DNA of 22,489 bases from a virus. The DNA is taken from positions 1 through 22,489 of the IMG/VR virus record IMGVR_UViG_3300037042_003718, one strand, 5' to 3'. The notes beneath the pieces were generated by a model. The model was not told the origin of the DNA. It made no database searches and saw only the letters and a program-made list of their open reading frames with translations. Within the stretch, counting starts at the first letter, position 1. Each line of letters opens with the position of its first letter. Below, in pieces: positions 2,300 through 20,610 of the stretch. The translations under genes were made by a program, and so were the position numbers.

Positions 2300-3931
2300 T
2301 TAAATTTGTACAACTAAATCTGTTGATCTTATTGCATTTGCATCTATGACTGAAGTATAGGTGTTACCAAAATCGGTTACTTGACCCCAAAATAACAACT
2401 TTCCATCATTTCTTAATGCAGCAGTATATCTTGTACCAGCAATTACTTGAACACAATTTCTCAATCCAAATGGAACATTGCATTCACCAGAATTATTTTC
2501 TCCCCAACAAACTACAGTTCCATCATCTCTGATTGCTACAGTATGGTGATACCCACCAGCAACTTGTTTAAATGTTCCTGTTGGGAGACCAAGTGTTCCA
2601 TCTGAATTGCGAAGTGGGCTGGATTCACCCCATTCATTTCTATCCCATGCAAATATAGATCCATCGGATTTAATAACCTGACTTGTGTAATATCCAGCAC
2701 CAACTGATTTTACGGAACCTGTTGTAATCTTAAAAGATTTTACAGTTGAAGCAGTTTGATCACCAATGGGTGCGGGTGGGAATGGATATGCTGCACCCCA
2801 ACCAGCATTATCTCCAACATTGTATCCATTTGGAATACCAGTACCGGCACGAGTCCAACCATTTCCTTGTTTTCCGCTTCCAGTAATTGTATAATACCAA
2901 TTTTGACCCCAAGTTTCAATATTTCCATCTTCTGTCAGTAAAATACTATGACCTCTGCCAGCAGCGATATCAATGTATCTTTTACCAGATGTTCCAAATA
3001 TGGAATTTGGAGAACTGCAATTATTATTATAACAACCATTTGGCATTGTTATATGTGCTGTACTTTTTGTCCAACTGCTTCCAGGACCACTATAGTTTAC
3101 GCTAGTGGGGTCGCCAACAGTTGCTCTGGAGAATTGATAATCGTAGGGGGCGCCCGTATCATTGATCCAGTTTAAAATTCCACTCCATGCAAAAGGAGGT
3201 CTTGGATATGTTCCGGCATATGGGCCAGAAGTTCTTATATATGGAGTGTCATATGCACCATTAGGATTATTAGAACTATAATTTTCTGCATAGTGTAATG
3301 GACAACCAACAGTTAAACCTCTGAATAATCTATATGGAATAAGTTCTGGACTTGGAACACATGTATTAGGTGAAAATAGAAACTCCAAAAATGATGCGGC
3401 GTCTTGTTTGTATTCCCAATTGATATATGCACTATATCCTGTAATATATGGAGCTTCAGCAGCAGTTGGTCTTGGAATTAAACCTACAGCAGACCAAACA
3501 GTATTTGGATCGCTAAATTGTGCGGTTTCGTTTCCACTACCCCAAGTAACTACAGATCCATCATTCAACAGTGCCAAATAATGGTATGCACCTGCTGCAA
3601 GTCTTACAACTTTTTTACCAACCGCATTTAGTTGGGTCATAAAATATTCAGTGTTTGCTTTATTTGTATTTGCATCATCACCCCAACCAATAACAGTACC
3701 GTCTACTTGCAAAGCAACTGCAGATCTATAACCTGTAACAACTTGTCTACACTTACCAAGAGTAACTGGAGGAGTCATGTTAACTCCTCTATGGTTTGTT
3801 ATATCTTTAGAAATATAATTAACGGTACCATCTTTGCTGGTATAAAAAATTAATGCCCCAGAATTAGTAGCCAAACTTACAGAATTCAAACCACTTACAG
3901 AAATATTGGTATTGAGTAATATTGGATGCAT
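2300..3931 (-). CDS. RCC1-repeat beta-propeller protein, probable tail or surface-binding protein
   Basis: 543 residues with at least six RCC1-type repeats: near residues 62-85 (CRQVVTGYRSAVALQVDGTV, IGWG), 106-133, 318-343 (YIDIAAGRGHSILLTEDGNI), 407-430, 453-482 and 493-517. Each has the x-V-x-AG-xx-H/Y-x-x-A-L...DG-x-V-x-WG pattern that forms one propeller blade. Blades two and three are separated by about 185 residues (135-317) of unrelated sequence rich in Tyr, Pro, Asn and Cys, probably a separate inserted domain. RCC1/BLIP-II folds are protein- or surface-binding platforms, and in bacteria and phages they are mostly extracellular. A receptor-binding or fibre role is inferred from the fold and late expression. 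No signal peptide or membrane span is visible. Start chosen at the only plausible ATG; the late box lies 30 nt upstream. Confidence 0.82.
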   Translation of the reverse strand: MHPILLNTNISVSGLNSVSLATNSGALIFYTSKDGTVNYISKDITNHRGVNMTPPVTLGKCRQVVTGYRSAVALQVDGTVIGWGDDANTNKANTEYFMTQLNAVGKKVVRLAAGAYHYLALLNDGSVVTWGSGNETAQFSDPNTVWSAVGLIPRPTAAEAPYITGYSAYINWEYKQDAASFLEFLFSPNTCVPSPELIPYRLFRGLTVGCPLHYAENYSSNNPNGAYDTPYIRTSGPYAGTYPRPPFAWSGILNWINDTGAPYDYQFSRATVGDPTSVNYSGPGSSWTKSTAHITMPNGCYNNNCSSPNSIFGTSGKRYIDIAAGRGHSILLTEDGNIETWGQNWYYTITGSGKQGNGWTRAGTGIPNGYNVGDNAGWGAAYPFPPAPIGDQTASTVKSFKITTGSVKSVGAGYYTSQVIKSDGSIFAWDRNEWGESSPLRNSDGTLGLPTGTFKQVAGGYHHTVAIRDDGTVVCWGENNSGECNVPFGLRNCVQVIAGTRYTAALRNDGKLLFWGQVTDFGNTYTSVIDANAIRSTDLVVQI

Positions 3932-6605: not shown

Positions 6606-6611
6606 TTAAAA

Positions 6612-6619
6612 ACTAAATA
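6612..6619 (+). promoter_or_regulatory. possible late box ACTAAATA before the tRNA-like element and tmRNA
   Basis: ACTAAATA in the short gap after tRNA-Tyr. Predicted +1 is 6625, two bases before the 5' end of the tRNA-like fold. If used, the tmRNA would be made late. Confidence 0.4.
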
Positions 6620-6626
6620 ATTTTAC

Positions 6627-6722
6627 GTGTAGTTAAGCGGCTGAGGATAAACGGCTAGGCTTATATGGACCTAGGTTTCTAGAACCGAGGGTTGAGAATG
6701 GGTGCAAGTCCCTCGCTACGCT
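6627..6722 (+). ncRNA. tRNA-like element with enlarged T and anticodon loops
   Basis: GTGTAGT (6627-6633) pairs over all seven positions with GCTACGC (6715-6721), and directly inside it a perfect T-type stem GAGGG/CCCTC (6687-6691/6710-6714) abuts the acceptor strand, exactly as in a tRNA. TA follows the acceptor, then a D-like arm AGC/GCT with GG in its loop. The T loop, however, has 18 nt (6692-6709); deleting 11 of them (6694-6704) leaves TTCAAGT, a canonical T loop. The anticodon region (CTAGG/CCTAG) has a 10-nt loop, and GGTT/AACC could be a variable arm. It may be a decayed tRNA gene, a tRNA with small insertions, or a processing signal for the tmRNA behind it. Confidence 0.5.
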
Positions 6723-6785
6723 TTGGTATTGTTGATATTGGAACAAAAGTAGTTCAACACAAGGGTTCAATTCCCTTCTGGTCCA

Positions 6786-6883
6786 CTAGCCTAATTTAAA
6801 TATTTTCTGCAAATATTTGAAGATGGCGAATCAAGTCCTCTTGCAGAGGGGCAACGCTTGGAGTCCTAGGCTCCAAGCATTAA
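6786..6883 (+). other. intervening segment between tmRNA halves
   Basis: About 98 nt removed in two-piece tmRNAs. It holds AAATATTT twice (6798-6805, 6811-6818), a CCTCT/AGAGG hairpin (6837-6849) and a perfect 8-bp hairpin GCTTGGAG/CTCCAAGC (6856-6863/6871-6878) ending 5 nt before the 5' end of the coding half. The hairpins probably guide processing at both ends. Confidence 0.7.
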
Positions 6884-6979
6884 GGGCCCGAATTGGTTTC
6901 GATTGGCTACGAGTAGTGAAGAAGGAGATGCCCGACACGGGTAACAAGTGTCGTAAATAAACAGTTGCAAAAAATAATT

Positions 6980-7006
6980 GCTAACGAATTAGCAATGGCT
7001 GCTTGA
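6980..7006 (+). other. tmRNA tag reading frame (tag ANELAMAA)
   Basis: Resume codon GCT, then Asn-Glu-Leu-Ala-Met-Ala-Ala and TGA. It is preceded by GCAAAAAATAATT, which matches the conserved A-rich and TAGT-like region before the E. coli resume codon. With the tRNA-donated Ala the added tag is AANELAMAA. It is shorter than most bacterial tags (E. coli has ten encoded residues) and ends in MAA rather than LAA. Confidence 0.85.
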
Positions 7007-7045
7007 AGCAGTGGGGTTTGGTCTCCCGCATCTGAATCGACCCTG

Positions 7046-7074
7046 AACCCCCCTCAAAAGGGGTTTTGTTATTT
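7046..7074 (+). terminator. intrinsic terminator after the tmRNA
   Basis: AACCCC/GGGGTT (7046-7051/7060-7065), an 8-nt loop, then TTTTGTTATTT. It ends the RNA cluster immediately before the next promoter. Confidence 0.85.
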
Positions 7075-7100
7075 GACACGCCATAAATAAGGAGTATACT
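7073..7100 (+). promoter_or_regulatory. sigma70-type promoter (TTGACA-16-TATACT), predicted leaderless
   Basis: Consensus TTGACA at 7073-7078, a 16-nt spacer, TATACT at 7095-7100, then ATTCAT and ATG at 7107, so +1 falls on the A of ATG. A CATAAATA box (7082-7089) and an AAGGAG (7089-7094) lie inside the spacer. That Shine-Dalgarno could serve only transcripts that start farther upstream. Confidence 0.78.
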
Positions 7101-7106
7101 ATTCAT

Positions 7107-7280
7107 ATGCCTAATTCAAAACAACGTGTAACTTCTCGTACGCATAGAAAGCGTAAGACCCGTCTTCGTAATAACCGTCACAAGAGCCTCATGGAGGCTA
7201 AAGTTGGTACTCTTCGTGCGCTTGACGCGAATGGCCAACTACCTATTTCAGTCAAGCAAGTGAGACTGCCTAATGGCTAA
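7107..7280 (+). CDS. small very basic hypothetical protein
   Basis: 57 residues. Residues 1-27 are dense in Arg and Lys (KQRVTSRTHRKRKTRLRNN, then RHKS); the rest (MEAKVGTLRALDANG, LPISVKQVRLPNG) is beta-like. The basic half recalls small ribosomal proteins such as bL32 or bS20, but I cannot match a family, so this may only reflect RNA or DNA binding. A strong sigma70-type promoter fixes the ATG and indicates early expression. It overlaps the next gene by 8 nt (ATGGCTAA). Too short for many gene finders, yet well supported by promoter, spacing and coupling. Confidence 0.75.
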   Translation: MPNSKQRVTSRTHRKRKTRLRNNRHKSLMEAKVGTLRALDANGQLPISVKQVRLPNG

Positions 7281-7572
7281 GACTGCCACAGAAATGACTC
7301 TTGCCGATGTACGCAAGAAGTATGATTCTATCGATTGCTTCTTCACCTATTATGATGGTGAAAAGGCTGCATTTGATTTTTATGGCACCGATGCAACGGG
7401 TGCGGAAGTTCGTATTTCCCTTGGTGGATGCCCTGCTTGGATCAAGCACATGGCATTCGGTCCAAAGGACCCCCTAAATATCAGTGACGCAATGAGCCGT
7501 CACGTTCGATATGTGTCTGTCACGGACAATCGGGGCAAGTTGGTTTACGAACAGATTTTTGATACTAACTAA
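7273..7572 (+). CDS. hypothetical protein, early operon
   Basis: 99 residues, mixed alpha/beta: an N-terminal helix (EMTLADVRKKYDS), then strands with aromatic residues (CFFTYYDGEKAAFDFYG) and a C-terminal strand pair (HVRYVSVTDNRGKLVYEQIF). No recognised family. It is translationally coupled to the 57-residue protein by an 8-nt overlap and lies 8 nt before the next gene, so the four genes 7107-8227 form one operon. Confidence 0.75.
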   Translation: MAKTATEMTLADVRKKYDSIDCFFTYYDGEKAAFDFYGTDATGAEVRISLGGCPAWIKHMAFGPKDPLNISDAMSRHVRYVSVTDNRGKLVYEQIFDTN

Positions 7573-17158: not shown

Positions 17159-18409
17159 TTAGCGTCTTCTTATTAAACTTGGTGGAGTTTGTCCGGGACG
17201 AGAAATCAAACTTGGAGCCTGACCATATTTGGGAGAACCAATACCACCATAGTTGGGTTGCTGTGCGGCTGGTCTTGCCATGAATCCGGGTTGTGCTTGA
17301 ATATTAGAAATTTCTTGACGAGCAGCAGCCTGACGTTCCGCAGTTGTCATATTTCGGAAACGGTCAAGTTCCATTTGAGATTGGTCAACCTGTCTTGTAA
17401 GTTCACCACCCTTTTCTGCCATGGCGGTATTTTGCTTATCATATGCTTGATTGAATTGATAAGAAGATACTGCTCCTTGACGGGCTGCTTCTGATCCATA
17501 ACGACCAGCGCCAGCTACCTTGTTGAGCATGGAACTTTCGCCTTTGTCAAATGCATTGTAATCTTTGCCAAACTTTGACTTATATTCTCCATAAGTCATG
17601 TTTGTGCCTTGGATGTTTTTATCTTTCATTCTTTCATAAAAAGCATTTTGATCACGTGGTGCATATCTTAAAGCAACATCCGATTGTTTTATATTTCCTT
17701 GTTGTGGACTTGACGGATTAATTTCGTCATACATTGAACGAAGTTGCTTTTGCATTTCTATAGTTTCGGGACTACTTGGGTCCACAGCTCTGGCAGCTTT
17801 CCATTTTGCTTTGAGTTCATCGCGTGCTTGTATTGCACCTATTGTGGCAGTTTTTATAGCCGCATTTCTTGCATCATTTTCGGCTTTTCTTTGATCTCTA
17901 TTGTCGCTGCTTCCTGTAGCCGCTCTATTAATAGTTGCAGTGGAACGAAGCATTCCTCGTGCATCTTTCAATTTTCCAATAGCATTACTATTGTCTGATT
18001 GAATATTTGGTTGTGCTGCTTGATTGTTGGGACCAACAGGCTGTGCACCGGGCAACATCGGCACATCTTTAACAGTCATGTCTTCGTTACCGGAAGGATC
18101 ATCTTGTTGTGGACCGCGTTTTGTGTACTCATTCAATGTGAATGGATTGACCGTGCTGTTCTTGGCATAAGAAGGATGGCCTGGATCATATTTCTTCTCT
18201 TCGCCAGATAATGCTCTGAGATACTTGCTGACATCTTGTGTCATGTGAGTATCATCGCTGAATGAAGAATTGCGAAGAAGGTTGTTTTCATTTAAGATAC
18301 CAACAATGCTATCTTTTAATGAACTCTTCTTTTGCTCAAAAGTTTGGGGCTTTTTGTTTAGAAAATCCTTGACTTCCCAATAAAATGATCTATTATCTTT
18401 GTTATCCAT
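17159..18409 (-). CDS. late virion-type hypothetical protein
   Basis: 416 residues from ATG 18409. The frame stays open to 18505, but the late box at 18420-18427 would lie inside that longer version, so the shorter start is chosen. Residues 8-20 (SFYWEVKDFLNKK) are ordered. L39-N40-E41 (GILNENN) is a possible prohead-protease site. Residues 110-200 are Asn/Gln/Pro-rich; 190-250 form a basic helix (RDQRKAENDARNAAIK); the C-terminal 60 residues are Pro/Gln/Gly-rich and end in PPSLIRRR. No known domain. It heads the operon that continues with the glycine-zipper protein, exonuclease and NUMOD-like protein. Confidence 0.74.
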   Translation of the reverse strand: MDNKDNRSFYWEVKDFLNKKPQTFEQKKSSLKDSIVGILNENNLLRNSSFSDDTHMTQDVSKYLRALSGEEKKYDPGHPSYAKNSTVNPFTLNEYTKRGPQQDDPSGNEDMTVKDVPMLPGAQPVGPNNQAAQPNIQSDNSNAIGKLKDARGMLRSTATINRAATGSSDNRDQRKAENDARNAAIKTATIGAIQARDELKAKWKAARAVDPSSPETIEMQKQLRSMYDEINPSSPQQGNIKQSDVALRYAPRDQNAFYERMKDKNIQGTNMTYGEYKSKFGKDYNAFDKGESSMLNKVAGAGRYGSEAARQGAVSSYQFNQAYDKQNTAMAEKGGELTRQVDQSQMELDRFRNMTTAERQAAARQEISNIQAQPGFMARPAAQQPNYGGIGSPKYGQAPSLISRPGQTPPSLIRRR

Positions 18410-18419
18410 GGCTATGAAA

Positions 18420-18427
18420 TATTTAGA
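18420..18427 (-). promoter_or_regulatory. late promoter box TCTAAATA (minus) of a divergent pair
   Basis: TCTAAATA, 10 nt (TTTCATAGCC), ATG at 18409. It forms one arm of the palindrome TATTTAGAATTTTCTAAATA (18420-18439). Confidence 0.74.
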
Positions 18428-18431
18428 ATTT

Positions 18432-18439
18432 TCTAAATA
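18432..18439 (+). promoter_or_regulatory. late promoter box TCTAAATA (plus) of a divergent pair
   Basis: TCTAAATA, 10 nt (CTTAAAACGT), ATG at 18450. Same spacing as its mirror image on the other strand, with only 4 nt between the two boxes. Confidence 0.74.
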
Positions 18440-18449
18440 CTTAAAACGT

Positions 18450-18947
18450 ATGTCGAAACAGGTTCTCCTGCTCAACTTCGACCAGTCTCCGATAAATGTT
18501 ATCAATCTGAATAAAGCGTATAAACTTATTTTAAAAAATAAGGTTTATGTTGATTATGACTCGGAAGAGTTTCATGAAGTTCAACTAGTAGCCAATAAGA
18601 TTAAAATACCTAAAATTTTAATTTTAAAGTATTACATCAAACTTCCAAATAAAAAGCTTTCACCATCCAGAAAGAATATCTTTAAAAGAGATTCTTATTG
18701 CTGTCAGTACTGTGGTAAAGATCTTTGTGATGGAAATGCCACTGTAGACCATGTTACACCAAGATGCAAAGGTGGGGCAGATTCTTGGACCAATTTGGTA
18801 ACTTCCTGTAAGGAATGCAACCTATATAAAGGTAGCAGGTCTCTTAAAGAGGCTAAAATGGAACTCAAAAATAAGCCAAAAGAACCTGCTTATGGATTCT
18901 TTATAGAAACCATGATGATTGCTTTTAAAAGGACCAAAAATGCCTAA
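18450..18947 (+). CDS. HNH endonuclease (McrA-type)
   Basis: 165 residues from ATG 18450, the start fixed by the late box; a longer frame from 18399 would run through the promoter. The N-terminal half (VLLLNFDQSPINVINLNKAY) is the usual helper region of phage HNH proteins. The nuclease core is C-terminal: RKNIFKRDSYCCQYCG (zinc CxxC), then TVDHVTPRCKGG with the catalytic His, WTNLVTSCKECN (second CxxC) and N of HNH, and KGSRSLKEAKMEL. Such genes are often free-standing homing endonucleases, or nick DNA in packaging. It forms a plus-strand pair with the zinc-ribbon gene, which it overlaps by 8 nt, in a minus-strand late region. Confidence 0.88.
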   Translation: MSKQVLLLNFDQSPINVINLNKAYKLILKNKVYVDYDSEEFHEVQLVANKIKIPKILILKYYIKLPNKKLSPSRKNIFKRDSYCCQYCGKDLCDGNATVDHVTPRCKGGADSWTNLVTSCKECNLYKGSRSLKEAKMELKNKPKEPAYGFFIETMMIAFKRTKNA

Positions 18948-19809: not shown

Positions 19810-19817
19810 TATTTATT
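19810..19817 (-). promoter_or_regulatory. late promoter box AATAAATA fused to the upstream stop codon
   Basis: GAA-TAA-ATA: the TAA of the box is the stop of the protease gene. 10 nt (TAGTAGGAAA) to the ATG at 19799. Confidence 0.72.
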
Positions 19818-20610
19818 CGGAAAACCAGGGCCAGTCGCAGACTTCTTGTTTCATTGAAGAATCGATCCAATCATAGAAATAATCAATTCTTGCGGCACCA
19901 TTGTCCAGAATCTGATTTGTTTCATGGTCCATGCTAAGGAAATCAATTATGCCGGCCAACTTTCCACCGTCTTCAAATACTGCACCACCAGAATCTCCAA
20001 AATAGATTGATCCTTTGGTTGCCAACATTCTCATTACTTGTCCATGATCTTCAATAAGACTTCCATAGTAATGCATAACACCGGATCTGCTTATTTTTTT
20101 AAATCCCAAACTCCAACCAACAGTAATTAAAGGTTCTCCCCTTGCAAGTTCAAATGGATATCTTATTAGATTGGTCGGAGGCTCAAAGCAATCTTCTTCC
20201 AAAATGCACAATGCAATATCATTGAGTTGAGCAGTTATAGAATATGGTTCTACTAGAATTACTTTTTTAATTTTTATTAGTTGACCATTCTTTGTCCAAA
20301 AATAATTTGGATAATAGTTTGGATCATCAAAACAATGTTGTGCACTCAATATTGCTCGTGGATGTATCAACACGGCAGAGCCAATTATACTTGCCCCCGG
20401 ACCTATCAAAGCCCCTACACAGGAGTAGCGGTCGTCCTCGTCAGCTTCGATGGAATCGTACTTCGATGAATCCAAAAGGAATGAGGGGACTCCCGCTACT
20501 TCCTGTGTTTTGTTCTGTTCAGGTTCTTCGGATTTTTGGGGGCAGGATATGCTATTGCATGCACTGCATGTCGCCAGAATCAGAGCGAGGATTGAAGCCC
20601 TCATACTCAT
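19813..20610 (-). CDS. exported trypsin-like serine protease
   Basis: 265 residues. Residues 1-20 (RASILALILATCSACNS) are an export signal, possibly lipoprotein-like, though the Cys context is not a clean lipobox. The chymotrypsin fold follows, with the full catalytic triad: H92 in AILSAQHCF, D131 in LNDIALCIL, S207 in GDSGGAVF, at family-typical spacing. Six or more Cys outside the signal suggest disulphides, so it acts outside the cytoplasm. The family cuts proteins after residues set by the S1 pocket, which I cannot assign. It has a consensus late box, so it is made with the virion proteins. It could aid lysis, process a surface protein, or alter the host envelope. A secreted S1 protease is uncommon in phages. 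Confidence 0.86.
   Translation of the reverse strand: MSMRASILALILATCSACNSISCPQKSEEPEQNKTQEVAGVPSFLLDSSKYDSIEADEDDRYSCVGALIGPGASIIGSAVLIHPRAILSAQHCFDDPNYYPNYFWTKNGQLIKIKKVILVEPYSITAQLNDIALCILEEDCFEPPTNLIRYPFELARGEPLITVGWSLGFKKISRSGVMHYYGSLIEDHGQVMRMLATKGSIYFGDSGGAVFEDGGKLAGIIDFLSMDHETNQILDNGAARIDYFYDWIDSSMKQEVCDWPWFSE

Follow-up and report, generated by a model that had tools for sequence, protein, structure and literature searches.

A circularly permuted phage tmRNA gene whose intervening sequence appears folded and exchangeable

Introduction

A circularly permuted tmRNA gene has been described in the methylophage Melnitz (MZ577097), and across phage genomes the same study recorded 53 two-piece tmRNAs, of which marine or aquatic phages account for 50 (PMC9004378). 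The occurrence of a permuted tmRNA in a phage is already published, then, and is not new, which answers a question that the first-pass annotation of the DNA considered here had left open. The Melnitz tmRNA is of the alpha type, its tag is ANDNYVPVDYALAA and a glutamine riboswitch has been reported in its 3' domain. One-piece tmRNAs with the standard gene order are also encoded by phages, among them the Bxz1-type mycobacteriophages and Bacillus phage G (PMC4131195). Bacterial permuted tmRNAs are represented in Rfam by three clade models, alpha (RF01849), beta (RF01850) and cyano (RF01851), and by a merged permuted model, RF04321. The intervening sequence of permuted genes is absent from the mature RNA (PMC11915505) and has a length of 75-125 bp in the known examples given for Pelagibacter (PMC2704228). 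In one permuted tmRNA a tRNA-Ala gene lies within the intervening sequence (PMC11915505).

The whole stretch of DNA analysed here, referred to as the window, corresponds to a virus record in IMG/VR and is 22,489 bases long. It carries a circularly permuted (two-piece) tmRNA gene, as the first-pass annotation had proposed for a phage. With Melnitz the gene shares its permuted arrangement in a T4-like phage, its tag frame and, by inference, the use of the host for the other factors; with the bacterial permuted tmRNAs it shares gene order, a tRNA-like domain, a resume and tag region and an intervening sequence. The one-piece phage tmRNAs are likewise phage-encoded RNAs for trans-translation, but the present gene is permuted. 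The structured, exchangeable intervening sequence is the most unusual part of the locus and was absent from the first-pass annotation.

Anatomy and flanks of the permuted gene

The gene occupies 6725-7042 on the + strand and both ARAGORN and Rfam place the acceptor half before the coding half. The merged permuted model RF04321 spans 6725-7006 end to end at 76.2 bits (E 2.7e-13), the gathering cut-off being 47 bits, and ARAGORN reports a permuted tmRNA with the tag ANELAMAA at 6695-7097. The acceptor piece (6725-6785) consists of a 5' GGTAT, a P2 strand, a T arm with its stem at 6761-6765/6773-6777, the 3' acceptor strand CTGGTCC (6778-6784) and the discriminator A6785; the 3' CCA is not encoded, as the discriminator is followed by CTA. 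Beyond the intervening sequence (6786-6883) lies the coding piece (6884-7042), with the 5' acceptor strand GGGCCCG (6884-6890), the D-loop region, the other P2 strand, a first pseudoknot (PK1), the tag and a second pseudoknot (PK2). The coding piece supplies ATGCC (6928-6932) as the partner of the GGTAT at the start of the acceptor piece, and P2 is formed across the halves by GGCUAC with GUAGUU. Alignment of relatives delimits PK1 at 6933-6968 (CGACAC 6933-6938/GTGTCG 6948-6953; GTAAC 6941-6945/GTTGC 6964-6968) and PK2 at 7011-7042 (GTGGG 7011-7015/CCCGC 7025-7029; GGTC 7020-7023/GACC 7039-7042). Between them the tag frame (6980-7006), called by ARAGORN and conserved in relatives, reads GCT AAC GAA TTA GCA ATG GCT GCT TGA, or ANELAMAA, and so closes with -AA followed by a stop codon. 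Within the coding piece the 3' part has no low-energy signal of its own (z -0.87), because a pseudoknot is invisible to the folding program.

The first-pass annotation had recognised the acceptor half (6761-6785) upstream of the coding half, the P2 helix joining them, PK1 and the tag, and each of these elements was recovered at its position; it had also proposed that a permuted-tmRNA model should score above its Rfam threshold, as RF04321 does. The pairing of GGGCCCG with CTGGTCC that it described holds for the location of both strands, but the acceptor stem contains a single mismatch, C6 x U67. Beyond its end point for the coding half, 7045, the gene probably continues through a terminator-like intrinsic hairpin with a T-rich tail (7045-7072, + strand) to about 7072; such hairpins are weak evidence by themselves, two having been found against 1.0 expected in shuffled sequence.

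A conserved non-coding RNA of about 90-105 nt, designated element E, lies between the tRNA-Tyr gene and the tmRNA (6624-6724), closed by the stem GCGUAG/CUACGC and containing the T-loop-like hairpin GGUGCAAGUCC. It drew no call from ARAGORN or Rfam. It was also seen in L009, L038, L041, L044, L048, L065, L072, L160, L174, L193 and other loci, and elsewhere it precedes a tRNA-Ser gene or an RNA like the module B described below.

In front of element E the window has a late-promoter-like box, ACTAAATAA (6611-6619, + strand), of putative function. Among relatives, 33 of 46 distinct upstream regions without E have a CTAAATA-type box that ends 3-6 bases, mostly 5, ahead of the acceptor piece; where E is present, the box lies 5' of it in 12 of 15 copies. 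The background is about 1-2% of 30-mers (1.2% for the regions without E). This box resembles T4-type late promoters, which suggests that the tmRNA gene may be expressed late. For the Melnitz tmRNA, in contrast, an early promoter was proposed (PMC9004378).

Relatives, covariation and place among known tmRNAs

A search of IMG/VR with the open reading frame 3' of the tmRNA (7273-7572) yielded 69 loci, and in 89 loci ARAGORN identified 27 distinct permuted tmRNAs. A scan with a coding-half motif raised the set to 63 distinct gene copies, three of which are cut by contig ends. RF04321 was passed by 10 of the 12 family records tested. An exact T-arm/acceptor pattern search of IMG/VR gave no match, INPHARED (50,697 phage records) held no tmRNA relative beyond T-arm similarity, and none was found among the plasmids searched.

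The alanine (AlaRS) identity pair G3:U70 is kept in all 44 distinct homologues, whilst other pairs of the acceptor stem covary across the same 44 sequences: pair 4 is GC, CG or UA, pair 5 CG or UA and pair 6 UG, CG or UA. The stem is fully paired in the 43 homologues other than the window gene; in L125 and L152, for example, the acceptor strand GGGGTCG pairs fully with CGACTCC (read by eye). All 44 also pair in the helix between the two pieces, GGUAU/AUACC, where changes on one strand are compensated on the other. Both helices of PK1 vary with compensation, CGACAC/GUGUCG being replaced by CGUU/AACG in some relatives, and the second helix of PK2 occurs as GGUC/GACC, GACCA/UGGUC, GAUCC/GGAUC or GCCC/GGGC (both sets read by eye from the alignment). 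Tags in the family end in -AMAA, -AVAA, -AIAA or -RMAA. The family is a conserved RNA of functional appearance.

None of the bacterial clade models reaches its cut-off in this family. The window gene scores 40 bits with the beta model (cut-off 84) and 24.6 with the cyano model (cut-off 70), and is not matched by the alpha model at E<=0.001, so that the alpha and cyano models suggested in the first-pass annotation as a check both miss their thresholds. Eleven family records gave at most 26 bits with alpha (cut-off 50), 30-53 with beta (84) and at most 42 with cyano (70), whereas Melnitz, as a positive control, gave 106.7 bits with RF01849. The family is therefore a separate lineage within a kind already known, closest to the betaproteobacterial model, and a lineage outside the alpha, beta and cyano models appears to be new when compared with the open-licence literature. 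With scores under the cut-off of every clade model and numerous relatives among viruses, it appears to be a long-established viral lineage, on a comparison that hardly covered bacterial genomes. A viral lineage of permuted tmRNA is thereby added outside the three bacterial clade models.

The intervening sequence

The sequence between the two pieces (6786-6883), termed module A on the basis of alignment, covariation and fold, is ordinary in length at 98 nt, as the known Pelagibacter cases span 75-125 bp (PMC2704228). It can be drawn as a helix P1 (6789-6791/6825-6827, GCC/GGC), a hairpin P2 (6795-6805/6811-6821) with the invariably present loop CUGC (6807-6810) and a hairpin P3 (6837-6840/6848-6851) with the loop GCAG (6843-6846), which is also invariably present and is complementary to CUGC; a linker GGCGA-NNN-AAGUCC runs between the P2 and P3 hairpins. 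A fourth helix, P4 (6856-6863/6871-6878, loop TCCTAGG), is optional.

Pairwise identity averages 81% in the core, 86% in the acceptor piece and 84% in the coding piece, but 35% in the 60 bases upstream of the gene. In an alignment of 32 distinct sequences pairing holds in 92.3% of cells; both partners have changed in 14 pairs, and compensatory changes, seen in three helices, account for 58 cells. These values were matched by none of 500 shuffles, and pairing fell to 34-46% when the partner was shifted by one to three columns, although the structure was drawn from the same 32 sequences and the contrast with shifted or shuffled partners is partly built in. In L008 a further compensatory change in P1, from GCC/GGC to GGC/GCC, is masked by a misaligned gap. 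The covariation indicates that module A is a conserved folded RNA. A contact between the P2 and P3 loops may be offered as a hypothesis only, and covariation provides no test of it because its four pairs never vary.

Within 6786-6883 Rfam returned nothing at E<=5 except tmRNA models. Neither a glutamine riboswitch such as that of Melnitz nor, at E<=5, a self-cleaving ribozyme was matched, and the notion that P4 is a dispersed repeat was discarded as it is present in a single copy per locus. The P4 loops were seen to be six-base palindromes that change together (CCTAGG, CCCGGG, GCTAGC; window 6856-6878 and relatives), and such loops could form loop-loop dimers. No description of a conserved, folded and exchangeable intervening module was found in the open-licence literature, and by that comparison the exchangeable folded spacer appears to be new.

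Exchange of the intervening sequence

The 63 gene copies comprise 46 with module A, seven with a different sequence, module B, six with a spacer of 5-6 nt, one with a remnant and the three that are cut by contig ends. The shorter module A spacers measure 71-73 nt and lack P4. Module B, of 122-173 nt, is unrelated to A and has a closing stem GGUUAG/CUAACC, D-arm-like and T-arm-like hairpins and a large variable arm. In their mature parts, genes with module B share 91-93% identity with the nearest module A genes, and the gene nearest to that of L193, which has module B, carries module A. It follows that the spacer has been replaced whilst the mature RNA was retained. Since some genes have only 5-6 nt between the pieces, a permuted gene of this kind can exist without a module. 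The remnant is the spacer of L186, which is 31 nt long with an A-like start; the mature RNA of this gene is 99% identical to that of L175, which has a full module A.

Module B shows a few compensatory changes of its own among six sequences and was matched to a tRNA by neither ARAGORN nor Rfam. It is not confined to permuted genes. One copy stops 12 nt short of the 5' end of a one-piece phage tmRNA (L203:1313-1772), which scores 117.9 bits with RF00023 and was missed by ARAGORN, and on the reverse strand of L044 and L065 module-B-like RNAs stand alone directly after element E, with the altered closing stems GGUGAU/AUCACC and GGUAAU/AUUACC. By its predicted fold, module B looks like a degenerate class-II tRNA. 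The tRNA-Ala reported in a permuted tmRNA (PMC11915505) is an independent instance of a tRNA in the spacer slot. In phage tmRNAs of both the one-piece and the two-piece kind, a tRNA-like RNA is associated with the 5' side of the coding part. The L065 copy was observed to be short enough to resemble a class-II tRNA.

That a discarded spacer should be both conserved and swappable hints at a function for the spacer itself. A nearly constant mature RNA occurs with three spacers (A, B and almost none), a natural experiment through which the role of the spacer can be tested by swapping, and which bears on why two-piece tmRNAs have evolved repeatedly and on what the discarded segment does.

Proposed function and alternative readings

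We consider it probable that the locus is a functional phage-encoded permuted ssrA gene from whose RNA the spacer is removed, that it serves ribosome rescue with the assistance of the host, and that module A helps the precursor to fold or be cut. The working-tmRNA part of this reading is argued for by RF04321 and ARAGORN, by the observed covariation, by G3:U70 in 44 of 44 homologues and by the conserved tag frame and pseudoknots; the acceptor-stem mismatch C6 x U67 of the window gene speaks against it, and the genes with a 5-6 nt spacer speak against a role for the module. In favour of the reading as a whole also count the conservation and compensatory changes of module A, the A, B and empty spacers among 63 genes, the module B copy beside a one-piece tmRNA, the lack of SmpB in 16 mostly incomplete records and the CTAAATA-type boxes. 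From these features we infer a course of events running from transcription timing through processing and charging to rescue in vivo, with a part in it for the modules. A single precursor of acceptor piece, intervening sequence, coding piece and terminator would be transcribed, probably from a T4-type late promoter. Host RNase P would cut before G6884, tRNase Z or exonucleases would trim after A6785, and CCA would then be added. Removal of the spacer would leave a two-piece tmRNA held together by the acceptor stem and P2, which the host AlaRS could charge by way of G3:U70 and which host SmpB would bring to stalled ribosomes; the nascent chain would receive an alanine and a tag ending in ANELAMAA and would then be released, so that ribosomes stay usable on the damaged or cut mRNAs of the infected cell. 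Module A most likely aids the folding and cutting of the precursor, or may itself be a second RNA that is released, whereas the tRNA-like module B would supply RNase P and tRNase Z sites itself, after the logic of tRNA punctuation.

The modules might instead be cargo, independent small RNAs that are excised by tRNA-processing enzymes and act alone, with the tmRNA precursor as their carrier. They are conserved almost as well as the mature RNA and yet are exchangeable and dispensable, module-B-like RNAs stand alone behind element E and occur upstream of a one-piece tmRNA, and the tRNA-Ala case (PMC11915505) has the same arrangement; but outside permuted tmRNA genes module A gave chance pattern matches only, and no targets or partners of the modules are known, so that we hold this to be possible but distinctly less likely. 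A related and equally tentative suggestion is that the gene is an expression platform whose spacer slot accepts interchangeable functional RNAs, kissing-loop-like or tRNA-like, which host enzymes would release to act alone during infection.

Recent capture of the permuted ssrA of a bacterial host, perhaps a betaproteobacterium, with the gene kept by chance or for a mild benefit, seems improbable. Of the three clade models, beta scores highest in the window (40 bits), and the -AMAA tag endings agree with the beta consensus, but every clade model remains below its cut-off, related viruses carry the gene widely and in diverse forms, and the spacer pattern gave chance matches only in one scan of a genome collection. 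The simple host capture put forward in the first-pass annotation is accordingly not supported. The matches in that scan (L136-L143) had no tmRNA around them and were consistent with chance. It is more improbable still that the RNA is left uncut, with the spacer as a structural domain, or that it is a decoy which occupies host SmpB in place of a working tmRNA. The conservation of the spacer would fit, and a molecule of phage DS6A that consists of a tRNA-like domain only does inhibit tmRNA (PMC4131195; PMC11915505). However, a decoy has no need of a tag frame or of pseudoknots, yet the frame and both pseudoknots are conserved, and in relatives the spacer is exchanged or absent. Retention of the spacer, moreover, would block the addition of CCA and hence charging. 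The functional permuted ssrA gene with a removed spacer is the reading that we prefer.

Genome context

The surroundings of the gene are those of a phage, with a ribonucleotide reductase (phrog_367), a RuvC-like resolvase and an exonuclease, and ARAGORN finds tRNAs for Gln, Tyr and Asn in the window. The neighbouring genes are nearest to those of cyanophages, of pelagiphage Mosig and of phages such as Caulobacter phage Cr30, at about 37-54% identity. A cyanophage reading was unsupported, no psbA having been found in 19 family records, mostly incomplete. A phage-encoded SmpB was found in none of 16 related records, mostly incomplete, the control search being positive in 10 of 14 genomes, and host SmpB is therefore presumably used. 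Elsewhere in the window a GroES-like co-chaperonin (431-703), an RCC1-repeat-like protein (2300-3931), an HNH endonuclease (18399-18947) and a trypsin-like protease (19813-20610) were noted.
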